Both the position numbers and the translations under genes were made by a program. A stretch of DNA of 36,236 nucleotides, from contig NZ_WAKV01000017.1 in the NCBI RefSeq assembly GCF_015523185.1, positions 1-36,236 of the forward strand, written 5' to 3'. The stretch comes from Thermococcus sp. (lineage in GTDB: Archaea > Methanobacteriota_B > Thermococci > Thermococcales > Thermococcaceae). This document shows positions 1,890 through 32,443 of this stretch, piece by piece; the first letter of the stretch is position 1; every line of letters begins with the position of its first letter. Below the pieces are notes generated by a model. The model did not search any database. It had not been told where the DNA came from and was given only the letters and a program-made list of their open reading frames with translations.

Positions 1890-1925
1890 AATTTAAAACG
1901 CTTTTTCAAATTCCCGGTTCCAAAC
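1890..1925 (-). promoter_or_regulatory. Candidate fdhA promoter with SurR-type half site
   Basis: On the minus strand, GTTTGGAAC (1925-1917) fits the GTTnnnAAC core recognised by SurR, the Thermococcales sulfur-response regulator. About 20 bp downstream is a TATA-like TTTTAAAT (about 1897-1890), some 70 bp before the TTG start. The extended string GTTTGGAACCGG recurs upstream of frhA. The third GTT of the full SurR pattern is imperfect here, so this site is weaker than the frhA one. Confidence 0.55.
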
Positions 1926-1977: not shown

Positions 1978-2037
1978 GTATTCTCTTCTCTGGATGGAAA
2001 ACAAAAGTGCTTAACAAGGCTGTTAAAAAATAAGGGC

Positions 2038-2868
2038 TCACAGGAGCTGGGCCATGTTTCTCTGGGCCCTTGCGAGCTTCTCCCTCGCTCTCTTGAGAAC
2101 CTCGCCGAGAACGTGAGACCCGTCGCGAAGCTCAAGGTAGCCCTCCTTTTCGGCCCTCCTGAGGAGCTCCTCCCCGCGCTGATTTCTTGTTATCAGCACA
2201 GTCCATCCCGGTTCGTTCTCGACGAAGCCGGCTGAAACGTCGCTCCAGACGCCGGTGTAGTCGGAGCAGACCAGACAGCCCGTCTGGAGATAGGAGAAGG
2301 CCTCTTTGAGGGGTATTGCGAGCACACTGTTTTCCCGGTGAATTTCGAGGAAGTCCTTTGAGAGCTTTATGTCCACTATCTCCTCGGCTCTGACACCGTA
2401 CCTGACGCGCAGATAGTTAAGGAAGGCCTCGAAGGCGAAGGTGCCCATGCAGAAGAGGCTCACGATGTAGCGAATCCTGTTCCCGAAGTCCGTCTCTAGT
2501 ATCGGGAAGTCCCTCATCTGGCCGAAGAACTGCGCCTGGCAGGGAAGACAAACCACTGCGACTCGCTCCAAGTTTTCCTCCTCTATCTTTGCCTTAATCC
2601 TTGCCGCGAAGGGGACTATGCTCCAGCGGTTTCCGGCGGTTTCCAGGAGCTCCTCCTTTGTCCTGGCAACTACTGCTTCACCCTCAAGTCCCTTCGTTCT
2701 TTTGGCCGTAACGACGCCGTCTATAAGGTTCTTTTCGAGGGCATAGGTGAGCATCGCAGTAACAGCGCCACCGCTTGCGACTTTCCTTTTCAGTATTTCC
2801 TCGTCGGTGGTCCTGCCGAGGTAAACGGCTCTAATCTGGCCGAGAAGGGTTTCCCCAACGGACATCAT
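2038..2868 (-). CDS. frhB: Frh/Fdh-type beta subunit (coenzyme F420 hydrogenase beta family flavoprotein)
   Basis: 276 residues. The FrhB family carries FAD and one [4Fe-4S] cluster and moves electrons between the hydrogenase (or formate dehydrogenase) and a soluble acceptor. Visible family features are the SGG motif near residue 33 (KVASGGAVT), the CLPCQ motif in place of the usual TPCQ, FCMGTF, and the C-terminal TGCLVCSDYTGVWSDVSAG segment. The start ATG at 2868 overlaps the frhG stop as ATGA, so the two are translationally coupled. In methanogens the homologous FdhB is the electron-transfer subunit of formate dehydrogenase. One FrhB-like protein here could therefore serve both FrhAG and the adjacent FdhA (inference). 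Thermococcales are not known to make F420, so the acceptor is probably something else. Confidence 0.87.
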   Translation of the reverse strand: MMSVGETLLGQIRAVYLGRTTDEEILKRKVASGGAVTAMLTYALEKNLIDGVVTAKRTKGLEGEAVVARTKEELLETAGNRWSIVPFAARIKAKIEEENLERVAVVCLPCQAQFFGQMRDFPILETDFGNRIRYIVSLFCMGTFAFEAFLNYLRVRYGVRAEEIVDIKLSKDFLEIHRENSVLAIPLKEAFSYLQTGCLVCSDYTGVWSDVSAGFVENEPGWTVLITRNQRGEELLRRAEKEGYLELRDGSHVLGEVLKRAREKLARAQRNMAQLL

Positions 2869-3545
2869 GTCTTAACACCTCCCAAGCAGATAATCTGGCT
2901 CGCGCGCGGACAGCGGATGTAGCAGGTTCCACAGCGTATGCACCTCTCTTGGGCTAGGGTTGGTCTCTTGTCTATGAGCTTGATTGCACCCGTCGGGCAG
3001 GAGAGCTCACAGGCCCCACAGCCTATGCAGAGGCCCGTTAGAACGACGTCATCAATGAGGTCGAACCCGCTCAGCTTCTTCACTCCCGCGGTAACCTTGA
3101 AGAGCCTCAGCCTCGTCTCGTTTCCTGCTATAAAGTACTTGAAAAAAGACTGGAGCATCTGAGGCGTTGGCGGACAGCCAGGTATCGAGTAGTCCACCCC
3201 TATCACGCTGTTTATCGGCTGGAAGTTCCTGTGGTCCGGCCTTGGTGCTTGACCTCCCCGGCAGAAGCGCAGTATTCCGCCCAGAGCTGAGCATGAGCCG
3301 AAGGCAACGACGACCTTGGCCTTTTCCCGTATCTCCTTCAGCTCTTTAAGGACCCGTGGCTCGTTTATGCAGGCTCCGCCTGTTATGAGGGCAATATCAT
3401 ACTCGTCGTACTTACATCCCCCGTTGCGGAGGTAAGATATGTCGAGCTCTATGCTATCCATGAGCTTGGGGTAGGCCCTTATGATGCTCACGTTACAGCC
3501 CTCACAACCGCCTATGTCAACGTGAAGGACCTTCAGCTTCCCCAT
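2865..3545 (-). CDS. frhG: Frh-type [NiFe] hydrogenase small (gamma) subunit with two extra [4Fe-4S] clusters
   Basis: 226 residues. It relays electrons from the NiFe site of FrhA. The proximal cluster ligands appear in DIGGCEGC (C14, C17), with GSCSALGG and PGCPPTPQ further on. A C-terminal 2x[4Fe-4S] ferredoxin-like part has CIGCGACELSCPTGA and CIRCGTCYIRCPRAS. I chose the ATG at 3545, not the longer in-frame start at 3590. GGTGAT overlaps the frhA stop 4 bases upstream, and the homologous N-terminus begins at MGKLKVL. The gene lies 5 bp after frhA and overlaps frhB by 4 bp, so all three form one transcript. Confidence 0.92.
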   Translation of the reverse strand: MGKLKVLHVDIGGCEGCNVSIIRAYPKLMDSIELDISYLRNGGCKYDEYDIALITGGACINEPRVLKELKEIREKAKVVVAFGSCSALGGILRFCRGGQAPRPDHRNFQPINSVIGVDYSIPGCPPTPQMLQSFFKYFIAGNETRLRLFKVTAGVKKLSGFDLIDDVVLTGLCIGCGACELSCPTGAIKLIDKRPTLAQERCIRCGTCYIRCPRASQIICLGGVKT

Positions 3546-3550
3546 AACTA

Positions 3551-4723
3551 TCACCTCATCCTCACTACATGGGTTGTGCAGGGGATACACGGGTCGTAGA
3601 GCCTCATAACCGCCTCAGCGGTTTTCACGCTCAATCCCTTCGCCATTTCCTCCATAATCGGGATGTTGAACATCGTTGGAACGACTATCTTCGAGCTAAC
3701 CACGCGCCCTTCTTCACCGAGCTCGATGTAGTGTATCAGCGTCCCTCTCGGCGCCTCGTAAACCCCTACTCCCTTGCCCGGGCCAAAGGTTATGTTCTTG
3801 GCCCTGAAGGCCTCGTTCATGTCAATCCCGTCAAGAATCTCCCCCAGGCGTAGGATTGCGAGCTCAACGTCCATAACCCTTGCGAGATGTATTCCGTAAA
3901 GGGAAGCGTCCCTGAACTCACGGTAGGTCTTCATCCTCGCTCTCGGGCCTGTTTCAACTTTCTTTCCGCCGTAGAAAGCTATTAGCGTCGTTGACTCCCT
4001 CGCGGGTTCCTCCTTCCTGAACTCGTAGTAGGGCATCGTCTCTATGGCATCGACCCTTATGTTGTAGCGGTCTCCGTAGAAGAAACTGCTCGCGAGGTAA
4101 GGCACTTCCCTCTTCGTTTCCCTCAGCTCCTCCGCTATCTCGGTCTGGACGTCTTCATCGAGGAGAACCTCTTTCACCTTTTCCCAGCTCTTCGCAAGGT
4201 CAGGGAACCTCGCCTTTAGGTTGTTGAAGACGCTCCACTTCGGGACGCGGAGCATGCCACCTATCGTCAGGTTCGGTGGGTGAGTTGCCGCCCCACCGAG
4301 CTTAATCAGGTAGTCGCTTACCTTGGCGTGGAAGGTCATGAGCTTGAAGAGCACCTCGTTCCGCTTCTCCTTCTTTATTAGGTCCCCTGCCATCATGAGG
4401 AACTGGAGGGCGTGACTTTGAGTTCTGTTTATCAGTCCGAGGGCTTCCCTCATGAGGAGCCCGTTCCTCGGAGGGGCTATTCCTATTGCGTGCTCGACCG
4501 CTTCCACAGCCGCTATGCCGTGGGACGCGTGGCAGAGACCGCATATTCTCATGACCGCCTCGATCGCGAAGAGCGGGTTCTTTCCTACCACTATCTTCTC
4601 GAACCCTCTGACAGGTGCGGTCGCGATGAAGAGAGCGTTCTGAACAGTCCCGTCTTCTTCATAGAGTATCAGCTTCGCCTCGCCGGCGACTCGACAGACC
4701 CTGTCAAGCTTGACCTCGCCCAA
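3551..4723 (-). CDS. frhA: Frh-type group 3 [NiFe] hydrogenase large (alpha) subunit
   Basis: 390 residues. It holds the NiFe active site for H2 oxidation or formation. The N-terminal ligand motif is RICGLCHASH (C61, C64). The C-terminal motif DPCIPCTTH (C379, C382) is followed by only VVRMR, the short tail that a maturation protease would remove. Both CxxC pairs are intact, so the enzyme should be active. I chose TTG at 4723 because GGGGGTGAT lies 3 bases upstream. A GTG at 4756 would add 11 residues without a ribosome binding site and would sit at the predicted transcription start. First gene of frhA-frhG-frhB. The promoter carries a full SurR-type site, which implies control by sulfur and redox state. 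Confidence 0.93.
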   Translation of the reverse strand: MGEVKLDRVCRVAGEAKLILYEEDGTVQNALFIATAPVRGFEKIVVGKNPLFAIEAVMRICGLCHASHGIAAVEAVEHAIGIAPPRNGLLMREALGLINRTQSHALQFLMMAGDLIKKEKRNEVLFKLMTFHAKVSDYLIKLGGAATHPPNLTIGGMLRVPKWSVFNNLKARFPDLAKSWEKVKEVLLDEDVQTEIAEELRETKREVPYLASSFFYGDRYNIRVDAIETMPYYEFRKEEPARESTTLIAFYGGKKVETGPRARMKTYREFRDASLYGIHLARVMDVELAILRLGEILDGIDMNEAFRAKNITFGPGKGVGVYEAPRGTLIHYIELGEEGRVVSSKIVVPTMFNIPIMEEMAKGLSVKTAEAVMRLYDPCIPCTTHVVRMR

Positions 4724-4779: not shown

Positions 4780-4813
4780 GATAAAAGGATTTCCTGAACC
4801 GAAGGTTTGGAAC
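4780..4813 (-). promoter_or_regulatory. frhA promoter: SurR-type operator GTTn3AACn5GTT plus TATA box
   Basis: On the minus strand GTTCCAAACCTTCGGTT (4813-4797) matches GTTn3AACn5GTT at all nine fixed bases. This is the pattern described for SurR in Pyrococcus furiosus. CCTTTTAT (4788-4781) is the TATA element, about 10 bp downstream of the site. That puts the transcription start near 4757, giving a leader of about 34 bases with GGGGGTGAT. A regulator site upstream of TATA is the arrangement expected for activation. Confidence 0.72.
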
Positions 4814-4906
4814 CGGAAATTTCTCCAAGGACGCCTGTACATCGCTTTATTTCAAAAAACACTTTTGTTTTCCTTTTCAAGAACGGCAAACAGACGCACC
4901 CAAAGC

Positions 4907-4914
4907 TTTATATA
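4907..4914 (+). promoter_or_regulatory. TATA box of the TRAM gene
   Basis: AGCTTTATATACTC contains TTTATATA at 4907-4914 with a purine-rich BRE-like stretch before it. Initiation is expected near 4938, leaving an untranslated leader of about 50 bases before the ATG at 4988. That is long for this window. The leader begins near the palindrome GACCGGTC (4923-4930). Confidence 0.6.
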
Positions 4915-4987: not shown

Positions 4988-5218
4988 ATGTACGGAGATA
5001 GATATGGTGGATACGGAAGGAACTATGGAAACGAAGCCCCGGTTAAGGTTGGAGAGCGCTACACCGTTAAGATTGAGAGCCTTGGCAAGGGTGGCGATGG
5101 AATCGCCAAGATTCAGGGCTTCGTTATCTTTGTCCCGAACACCCAAGTTGGGGACGAGGTTGAGATTGTAATTAACTCCGTCAAGAGGAAGTTCGCTTTC
5201 GCTTCAGTCATCGAGTGA
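4988..5218 (+). CDS. TRAM domain protein, archaeal small RNA-binding type
   Basis: 76 residues. A short Gly/Tyr-rich head ([14 protein letters not shown]) is followed by one TRAM domain, [20 protein letters not shown]...[18 protein letters not shown]. The GKGGDGIA and VGDEV signatures are typical of stand-alone archaeal TRAM proteins, which bind RNA nonspecifically and have been proposed to act as RNA chaperones, the archaeal counterpart of cold shock proteins. I chose ATG 4988; an in-frame GTG at 4979 has no better ribosome binding site. It is monocistronic and divergent from frhA, with about 230 bp of shared upstream DNA. Confidence 0.88.
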
Positions 5219-29138: not shown

Positions 29139-29486
29139 TCATTCTTTTTCGAACTTCTCTATTGCCTTCATCAGCGGGATGAGGTGCATTAATGCAGGAC
29201 CACCCGCCATGAGAACTGCGACAAGGCCTGCCTCGATGAGTTCCTCGGGCTTTGCTCCAGCTTCAAGTGCCTTCTGAGTGTGGAGGTAGATGCACCACTC
29301 ACATCCGGCTGAAATGCCAAGGGCGAGTGCTATGAGCTCCTTCTCGCGCGTTGTTAGTGCCTTGTTGTCAAGGGTCTCACGGAGGAACCTCGAGAAGGCG
29401 GCAATCTCTTTCGGGTGCTCTTTTCCAAGTTTGTCGAGGAGCTCTTCGATTTCCTTAAGCTTGACCTCAACCTCTGAGTACTCCAC
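29139..29486 (-). CDS. Carboxymuconolactone decarboxylase/AhpD-like protein
   Basis: 115 residues. The CMD motif ISAGCEWCIYLHTQKALEAGA contains the redox pair CxxC and a following His, as in AhpD-type disulfide reductases. Helices TTREKELIALALG and PEELIEAGLVAVLMAGGPAL complete the fold. It likely helps remove peroxide or relay thiols. I chose GTG 29486 because GGTGAT lies 4 bases upstream; GTG 29495 lies inside that site. Confidence 0.85.
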   Translation of the reverse strand: MEYSEVEVKLKEIEELLDKLGKEHPKEIAAFSRFLRETLDNKALTTREKELIALALGISAGCEWCIYLHTQKALEAGAKPEELIEAGLVAVLMAGGPALMHLIPLMKAIEKFEKE

Positions 29487-29547
29487 GGAAATCACCGAAA
29501 TAATATGAATGAGGGAAGTCCTTAAGGTTTTCCTGAACCAGTAGTTT

Positions 29548-31089
29548 TTAACTACTCGTTGGCACTATCCCCTGCCTGCGCATCTTGAGAATATCGTCTA
29601 TCACGTCTATCAGTCCGGCTATTATCTCGTCGTACTTACCACCATCTGTTCCGTAAACTTCCTTTAGTTTATCCTGCAGTATAAAAATGTCCTCGGTATC
29701 GAGGTCGAGTATTTTCTGGGCTTCCCTTGCAATGGCTCTCAGGGTAACTCCTCTCGTTCTTTTGTCGTCTAGTAATTTCAGAATGAGCTTTAGCATTCCT
29801 GACAGCATCTCCTTTGAGGATATCCTGTCTGAGAGTCTGGCCATTAGCTCGATTGCCCCTTCTACATCTCTCTCCTTTCCGGACTTGAGGAGTGTATCAA
29901 GCAAGCTCGTGAAGAACTTCGAAGTTCCTGGGTAGAGGGCGTAGATGTCAGCCAAGACCTTTGCAGCTGTTTCCCTCGCCCACGGGTTCTTGCTCTTCAG
30001 GAAGTCTCCTAGAACGGGCAGAATCCGGTAGGCATCGCTCGGCGTCAGGTGACTCGTCAGCCTGGTCACAATCCATAGGGCATCTAATCTTCTGCTGTAG
30101 TCCTCGCTTTCGAGCATGCTTAGAACCTTATCCATCACATCCGGGTCTAGCTTTGCCATTTCAGCAACTATCTCCGTCTTTCCAGCGTCTAATAACCTTT
30201 CAACGTCATCTATGCTGTACTGTGTTATCTCCATTCTCTTCTTTGCGTCCGTCTCGCTTATCAGCTCTTCTTTTGTTACGGTGCTCTTTTCGAGCTTTTC
30301 GAGGACCTGGGAAGCCTTAAGGCCAAGCTTAACGTCACCTTTCAGCTCTTTTATCCGGGTTATGGCTTTCAGCTTGTTCCTTGTGCTTATCTCCTTCTCG
30401 CGTGAGAGCATCCTCTCAATTGAGTACAGAGCTCTCTCAACCACGTAAGGGTCGGGATGAGCTAAAAGGTCTGCGACACCCTCAAAGATTTCGTTCAGGA
30501 CTTTCCTGTCTTCAGTTTTCATTGCCATCTCAGTCAAGGCTGTTATCGCGGCGCTCTGGACTTCCTTCTTCTTACTTGAGCCAATGAGGGAGAACAGCCA
30601 GCGGATTATCTTGTAGGCTATCTTCGCGACTTTTGCACCGAGTTTTCCAAGCCCTTCGGCCGCGTATTCGCCCAGTATGGGAACCCCGGACTTGACGACC
30701 TCTTTTAGGGTGTCCGTAACTCTCTCGTATTCTTCATCACTGAGCTCACCAGTTTCGAGGAGAGCGTTTATAAACTCGAGGGCTTTTAGTGCTACTCTTT
30801 CATCGTCGTCCTTTACAAGCTCGAGCACGCCCTCTAGGGCAAGCTTTTTTCTCTCGCCTTCAAGTTTTCCCTCGGAGAGCATGTCGGTTAAAACCTGAAT
30901 GGCGTTTGTCCTTACGTGGGGGTTTTCATCCCTCAGGAGCTCGAAGAGTATCCTAAAGGCCTTGTCGTACTGCTCCGCAAGGGCCTTAACCTCTTTGAGG
31001 TGCCAGGTGAGTAAGTCCTTCCTGATACCCTCTTTGTCGATTATTATATCGCCACCCTTCAGCACGGCAAGAAGCGTCAAACCCAGCAT
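29548..31089 (-). CDS. Long HEAT-like helical repeat protein
   Basis: 513 residues of repeated helix pairs resembling HEAT/ARM units, for example LLRDENPHVRTNAIQVLTDML, LVKDDDERVALKALEFINALL, LLAHPDPYVVERALYSIERML and FLKSKNPWARETAAKVLADIY. The conserved D/N-P-xVR turn is clear in several. There is no signal peptide; a short hydrophobic stretch at MLGLTLLAVL is too brief to be sure of. Start ATG follows GGGGGACG. Monocistronic, divergent from hflX. Probably a scaffold; function unknown. Confidence 0.82.
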   Translation of the reverse strand: MLGLTLLAVLKGGDIIIDKEGIRKDLLTWHLKEVKALAEQYDKAFRILFELLRDENPHVRTNAIQVLTDMLSEGKLEGERKKLALEGVLELVKDDDERVALKALEFINALLETGELSDEEYERVTDTLKEVVKSGVPILGEYAAEGLGKLGAKVAKIAYKIIRWLFSLIGSSKKKEVQSAAITALTEMAMKTEDRKVLNEIFEGVADLLAHPDPYVVERALYSIERMLSREKEISTRNKLKAITRIKELKGDVKLGLKASQVLEKLEKSTVTKEELISETDAKKRMEITQYSIDDVERLLDAGKTEIVAEMAKLDPDVMDKVLSMLESEDYSRRLDALWIVTRLTSHLTPSDAYRILPVLGDFLKSKNPWARETAAKVLADIYALYPGTSKFFTSLLDTLLKSGKERDVEGAIELMARLSDRISSKEMLSGMLKLILKLLDDKRTRGVTLRAIAREAQKILDLDTEDIFILQDKLKEVYGTDGGKYDEIIAGLIDVIDDILKMRRQGIVPTSS

Positions 31090-31171: not shown

Positions 31172-32443
31172 ATGAAAGCCATCGGCGTCATTAGATACTC
31201 GCGAAAGGATAGGTTAAGCAAAGTGGAGTTCGAGGAGCTCATCAGGAGTGCTGGTTACGAGGTTCTCTCGATTATCGAACAGAACAGGGATGAGCATCCC
31301 CGCTATAATATCGGAAGGGGAAAGCTGGAGGAACTTAAGGAGCTCGTCAGGGAGTTCAAGCCCGACAAAGTCATCTTCGCCAACCGCTTAACCCCGAGTC
31401 AGGCCTACAATCTATGGAAAGAGCTTAGGGTTGAGGTAATGGACAGGTGGCAACTTGTCCTTGAGATTTTCGAAAAGAGGGCGCACTCAAAGGAGGCCAA
31501 ACTTCAGGTTGAGTTGGCTTCGCTCCAGTATGAAGTTCCACTCGTGAAGGAGGCGATAAGGCGAATCAAACTCGGTGACAGGGCCGGTTTCAAGGGGATG
31601 GGCGAGTACCAGACCCAGCAGTACCTCAAGCACATCCGCTACAGGATGGGAAAGATAAGGAAGGAGCTTGAGAAGGTCAAGGCCGAGCGGGAAGTGCGGA
31701 GAAAGAAGAGGGAAGAGTTCGGCTTTATCCTCGTGTCTCTGGCTGGCTATACAAACGCCGGCAAATCAACGCTCCTCAACGCTTTGGCTGGAGAGAACGT
31801 TGAGGCCAGAAACCAGATGTTCACAACCCTTGACACAACCACGAGGCGCTTCAAGCTCTCGGGAAAGAGGGTCCTCTTAACTGACACCGTGGGTTTTATA
31901 GATGGGCTTCCACCCTTCATAGTTGAGGCCTTCCATTCAACGCTGGAGGAGATTGTAAAGTCGGACGTAATACTCCTCGTTCTCGACTCGAGTGAACCAT
32001 GGCGCGAAATAGCGCGGAAGTTCAGGGCTTCTGTGGACGTTCTGAGGGAGCTCAAGGCCCTCGGCAAGCCGATAATCGTAGTTCTCAACAAGGTGGATTT
32101 GATTGAAGGGGAAGACGCCGATGAGAAGGTTAGGCTTTTGAAGGAGCTCAGCGAGAGGGTTGGGCTCTTAATAGAGGGCGTTGCCCGGGTCTCTGCAAAG
32201 GAGAGGAAGCTTGATGAACTCTACGAAATCCTTGAGAGGACAATCCTCAGGCTTCCAAAATATGGGGCCTTTGAGATTGTCATCGAGAACCCGGAGAAGG
32301 TTCCAGCTGTGATGGCCCTTCTGAGCTCTGTTGGCGAGATTCTGTCGGTTGATTATGGAGACGTTACGAGGATTCGGGCTTACATCCAGACCGGGATGCT
32401 GAAGGAACTGACAAAAATGGATGTAAAGATAAGAAGGCTGTGA
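31172..32443 (+). CDS. hflX: GTPase HflX, ribosome-associated
   Basis: 423 residues. HflX binds the 50S subunit and can split stalled or heat-damaged ribosomes. An N-terminal HflX domain with the glycine-rich NIGRGKLEEL signature precedes a basic coiled coil (about 150-182) and the G domain. G1 is GYTNAGKST (192-200), G2 is FTTLDTTTR, G3 is DTVG (238-241), G4 is NKVD (306-309), G5 is SAKE. A C-terminal domain follows. All G motifs are intact. Convergent with the second PiT gene, one base apart. Confidence 0.94.
   Translation: MKAIGVIRYSRKDRLSKVEFEELIRSAGYEVLSIIEQNRDEHPRYNIGRGKLEELKELVREFKPDKVIFANRLTPSQAYNLWKELRVEVMDRWQLVLEIFEKRAHSKEAKLQVELASLQYEVPLVKEAIRRIKLGDRAGFKGMGEYQTQQYLKHIRYRMGKIRKELEKVKAEREVRRKKREEFGFILVSLAGYTNAGKSTLLNALAGENVEARNQMFTTLDTTTRRFKLSGKRVLLTDTVGFIDGLPPFIVEAFHSTLEEIVKSDVILLVLDSSEPWREIARKFRASVDVLRELKALGKPIIVVLNKVDLIEGEDADEKVRLLKELSERVGLLIEGVARVSAKERKLDELYEILERTILRLPKYGAFEIVIENPEKVPAVMALLSSVGEILSVDYGDVTRIRAYIQTGMLKELTKMDVKIRRL

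Follow-up and report, generated by a model that had tools for sequence, protein, structure and literature searches.

When reduced, the SurR regulator binds its DNA motif and activates transcription if the site lies upstream of BRE/TATA, while a site that overlaps these elements causes repression. Sulfur oxidises the CxxC motif of SurR, which is then released from DNA. Both properties are described in three papers (PMC12401011, PMC8595942, PMC10025317), two of which also note SurR sites in promoters of frh (PMC10025317, PMC8595942). In Thermococcus onnurineus, the alpha and beta subunits of Frh were detected on formate and starch, not on sulfur (PMC4463584); these data record presence or absence of protein in another species, and SurR is not separated in them from other effects of sulfur. 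Frh is further reported to pass electrons on to TrxR, Pdo and SurR as a chain (PMC10025317 citing Jung 2020), and a version of a Frh-SurR feedback loop is proposed in the same paper.

The locus described here belongs to a Thermococcus sp. contig (NZ_WAKV01000017.1), and the window is the whole stretch that was analysed, with a length of 36,236 nucleotides. All coordinates are those of the window.

Operator and gene context

A SurR-type operator, GTTCCAAACCTTCGGTT, occupies positions 4797-4813 on the minus strand, and its nine fixed bases are those of the SurR consensus GTTn3AACn5GTT without a mismatch, as the initial annotation had claimed with correct coordinates. The operator begins 90 bp 5' of the likely TTG start codon of frhA, and about 73 bp lie between its end and that codon. 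Its statement that the site directly adjoins the TATA box on the 5' side also holds, since only a 10-bp BRE-like element, CAGGAAATCC (4787-4796, minus strand; recognised by its sequence and its conserved columns), separates the operator from TTTTAT (4781-4786, minus strand). The operator does not overlap the TATA box, and its location just upstream of BRE/TATA is that of an activating-type SurR operator.

The genes behind the operator, all on the minus strand, are in the order frhA, frhG, frhB and fdhA. The first is a frhA-like gene for a NiFe hydrogenase large subunit (3551-4723; PF00374), followed by a frhG-like small subunit (2865-3545, ATG at 3545) and a frhB-like subunit (2038-2868, ATG at 2868; PF04432, PF04422). 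A mechanical search for open reading frames started frhA at GTG 4756. However, TTG 4723 is a likelier start: a Shine-Dalgarno-like GGGGGTGAT is found just 5' of it, and most orthologues align from the TTG at that place. The NCBIfam equivalog for the large subunit of F420-reducing hydrogenase, TIGR03295, gave 292 bits with a cut-off of 392.5; the scores of the small subunit (TIGR03294, 212 bits, cut-off 245.5) and of the frhB-like subunit (TIGR03289, 182 bits, cut-off 331.5) are below their cut-offs too. Therefore, the name "Frh-like" is correct, rather than F420-reducing hydrogenase. The fourth gene, fdhA (1-1820, TTG at 1820), encodes a formate dehydrogenase alpha subunit (TIGR01591, 733 bits, over the cut-off) and is cut by the contig end.

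Conservation of the operator among Thermococcaceae

Among 94 Thermococcaceae genomes, 29, including that of the window, had a close orthologue of frhA (65-100% identity) with a readable upstream region. Conservation of the site upstream of frhA in close relatives had been set beforehand as the test that could refute the proposal: the full GTTn3AACn5GTT is found in 24 of the 29 promoters, and a single fixed base is changed in the other 5. Spacing between operator and TATA box is identical in all 29. The 24 full matches compare with 0.07 expected in the 29 upstream regions and with none for the reversed pattern; the promoters are related and the counts are not independent trials, yet the flanks, which are equally related, have diverged.

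The contrast between site and flanks is seen in the information content of the columns in 20 representative promoters. The nine fixed positions average 1.93 bits and the eight n positions 1.23, with means of 1.46 bits for the BRE stretch and 1.83 for the TATA columns; the six bases of TTTTAT are invariant. Conservation drops sharply at the edge of the operator, to 0.27 bits over the 40 bases upstream of it, and amounts to 0.49 over the 25 bases downstream of the TATA box.

The five promoters with a changed base come from a single lineage (G016, G027, G034, G040 and G043; loci L033-L037), with about 66% identity, in which the first G is lost (ATTn3AACn5GTT) and AACCTTTGGTTCAAAAAA is kept. In these genomes, the 3.2 kb that follow frhA yielded no SurR site. 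Frh homologues outside the Thermococcaceae (Njordarchaeota, Thermoplasmata) had no such site within 300 bp upstream. A contig scan for further loci brought few extra Thermococcales and served chiefly for outgroup controls. Three genomes (G087, G089 and G090) carry a second frhA copy near the first, with 56-57% identity to the frhA of the window. An AACAAAA element, often in the form AAACn6GTTT, is present 136-152 bp 5' of frhA in 12 of the 29 orthologues.

SurR and probable activation of frhA without sulfur

A SurR protein is encoded in the genome (NF047699, 382 bits, cut-off 250), and the best match of the protein among solved structures is PF0095 of P. furiosus (2qlz). The CxxC switch is present as CTEC. 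The surR gene is divergent from pdo, and a full SurR site lies between both genes. Another candidate for surR, a 240-aa gene in locus L075, was discarded: it matched neither solved structures nor NCBIfam families, and surR was located in L056 instead. Scores over the NF047699 cut-off were obtained in 91 of the 94 genomes, among them all 29 with frhA promoters; the other three genomes, with lower scores, are represented by incomplete assemblies. The frhA operator has the company of known SurR-type targets, as other full sites precede genes for FNOR/Nfn-like subunits, a CoA-disulfide-reductase-like protein and a NuoE-like protein as well as cbiM, hypF and hypD. This set of genes is what a regulon for hydrogen and sulfur metabolism would be expected to contain.

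The reading we favor, with a probability of about 0.9, is that the predicted SurR operator activates the frhAGB operon in cells without elemental sulfur. In its reduced form, SurR would bind GTTn3AACn5GTT just 5' of the BRE and the TATA box and, once bound, would help to recruit the basal transcription machinery. Sulfur would oxidise the CxxC of SurR, which would then leave the DNA, and frhA transcription would drop. Binding, direction of the effect and response to sulfur are inferred from what has been published for related species. Activation without sulfur is the best reading because the frhA promoter has its site in the activating position and Frh of T. onnurineus was not detected on sulfur. 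The initial annotation had proposed that the Frh-like hydrogenase is activated without sulfur, and the proposal seems well founded on the conserved site, a SurR with its CxxC, the activating position and the T. onnurineus observation (PMC4463584).

An improbable alternative is that SurR binds but acts mainly as a repressor, or that another signal (H2, formate, CO or pressure) dominates frhA and the effect of sulfur is small. Other signals are known to matter in relatives, as pressure alters frh in T. piezophilus (PMC8595942) and Frh fell during CO adaptation of T. onnurineus (PMC4791640). However, a site 5' of BRE/TATA that leaves the TATA box free is in the activating place, and the absence of Frh from T. 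onnurineus grown on sulfur (PMC4463584) speaks for a sulfur effect.

Less probable still is that the operator serves, instead of or besides frhA, the divergent gene with which frhA shares the intergenic region. This gene (4988-5218, plus strand) encodes a small TRAM-like protein, named by eye from its sequence. The gene has a TTTATATA box of its own (4907-4914), and the operator is about 94 bp away from this TATA box. In addition, the TRAM-like gene adjoins frhA in only 14 of the 29 loci, whereas every one of the 29 retains the operator at an unchanged distance from the TATA box of frhA.

Match counts and chance expectation

Shuffling of the window gave 0.26 matches to GTTn3AACn5GTT on average, which bears out the earlier estimates of chance (0.3 per window and about 0.002 in the gap upstream of frhA). 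In the real window there are four matches instead of a single one, a number that 100 shuffles never produced. One of the four (31811-31827) is probably a chance match, as it lies within a HflX-like coding sequence and scores poorly at the n positions. Genome-wide, 39 matches were counted versus 4 for the reversed pattern; some of the 39 fall within genes. The promoter statistics for the genome refer to the stretches retrieved.

The n positions were examined with a weight matrix made from the eight n positions of 22 other full sites judged to be promoter-located in the same genome, some of which were placed in promoters by hand where a spurious open reading frame overlapped. The frhA site scored 4.99, a value exceeded by only three of the 22 left-out scores and reached by 0.35% of random sequences (fraction 0.0035). 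Hence, the eight n positions of the frhA site agree with the pattern of the other SurR sites in this genome. That the frhA match is due to chance, with no regulator bound to it, can hardly be credited: the motif fixes nine bases only and part of the 39 genome matches are within genes, but the site is conserved family-wide with a sharp boundary, is found in orthologous promoters that have diverged, and has n positions that follow the SurR pattern of the genome.

Other SurR-type promoters in the window

A full match, GTTAAAAACTACTGGTT (29536-29552, minus strand), precedes a gene of the carboxymuconolactone-decarboxylase family (CMD/AhpD-like; 29139-29495, minus strand; PF02627); it is overlapped on the opposite strand by the third match of the window (29544-29560). 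The spacing between site and TATA box is the same as at frhA, and GTTn3AACn5GTT is found at the same place before the gene in the seven relatives examined (7/7), three of which differ in sequence further upstream. A chance origin of GTTAAAAACTACTGGTT was considered and rejected: its poor score at the n positions is outweighed by conservation in relatives. The CMD/AhpD-like gene thus carries a predicted second conserved SurR-type promoter of the window, a new detail. A literature search that did not cover the main SurR papers turned up no mention of this gene among the targets of SurR.

The frh and fdhA operons both appear tied to SurR because a SurR-type site, GTTTGGAACCGGGAATT, is also found upstream of fdhA (1909-1925, minus strand), followed by a TTTTAAAT box (about 1898-1891, minus strand) whose register matches that of the frhA promoter, and because a full SurR site lies at most 260 bp from fdhA, on the opposite strand, in 15 of the 18 relatives in which fdhA adjoins frh. 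In the site of the window, the GTTn3AAC palindrome is intact and the third arm is one base off. Two further sequences were recorded: GGAAAACAAAAGTG is present upstream of both frhA (4860-4873, minus strand) and fdhA (1996-2009, plus strand), and AAAACAAAAGTG has four occurrences in the genome.

Significance and comparison with known systems

The operator would put the Frh-like hydrogenase under a sulfur switch, together, probably, with the formate dehydrogenase operon next to it. It is also the link needed for a H2-sensing feedback loop, given the reported electron flow from Frh to SurR by way of TrxR and Pdo (PMC10025317 citing Jung 2020). A tentative speculation, which we consider rather doubtful, is a positive loop in which Frh uses electrons from H2 to reduce thioredoxin reductase, Pdo in turn keeps SurR reduced, and SurR drives frhAGB; Frh might then be a H2 sensor that sets the hydrogen/sulfur state of the cell. 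The conserved operator makes such a loop possible, without demonstrating it, and the loop could be approached through one promoter-site change in a tractable Thermococcus.

Compared with the frh-promoter SurR sites already published, the motif, its place 5' of BRE/TATA and the frh-fdh gene order are alike, and no difference was found in the published passages. As in the window, a full GTTn3AACn5GTT precedes frh of the T. piezophilus F420-reducing hydrogenase (PMC8595942, Table 2); the long SurR motif lies 71 bp before the annotated start in that species and about 73 bp before the TTG start here. The SurR regulon of P. furiosus, as described in papers that cite Lipscomb 2009 and 2017, has the regulator, the motif and the target classes (hydrogenase and its maturation) in common with this genome. 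Because SurR sites before frh (PMC10025317, PMC8595942) and the loss of Frh on sulfur in T. onnurineus (PMC4463584) had been published before, the frhA operator represents an arrangement that was already known, and its detection is a correct rediscovery. What is added to that arrangement is the family-wide measurement of conservation, the lineage with a one-base variant and the second SurR-type promoter predicted at the CMD/AhpD-like gene.
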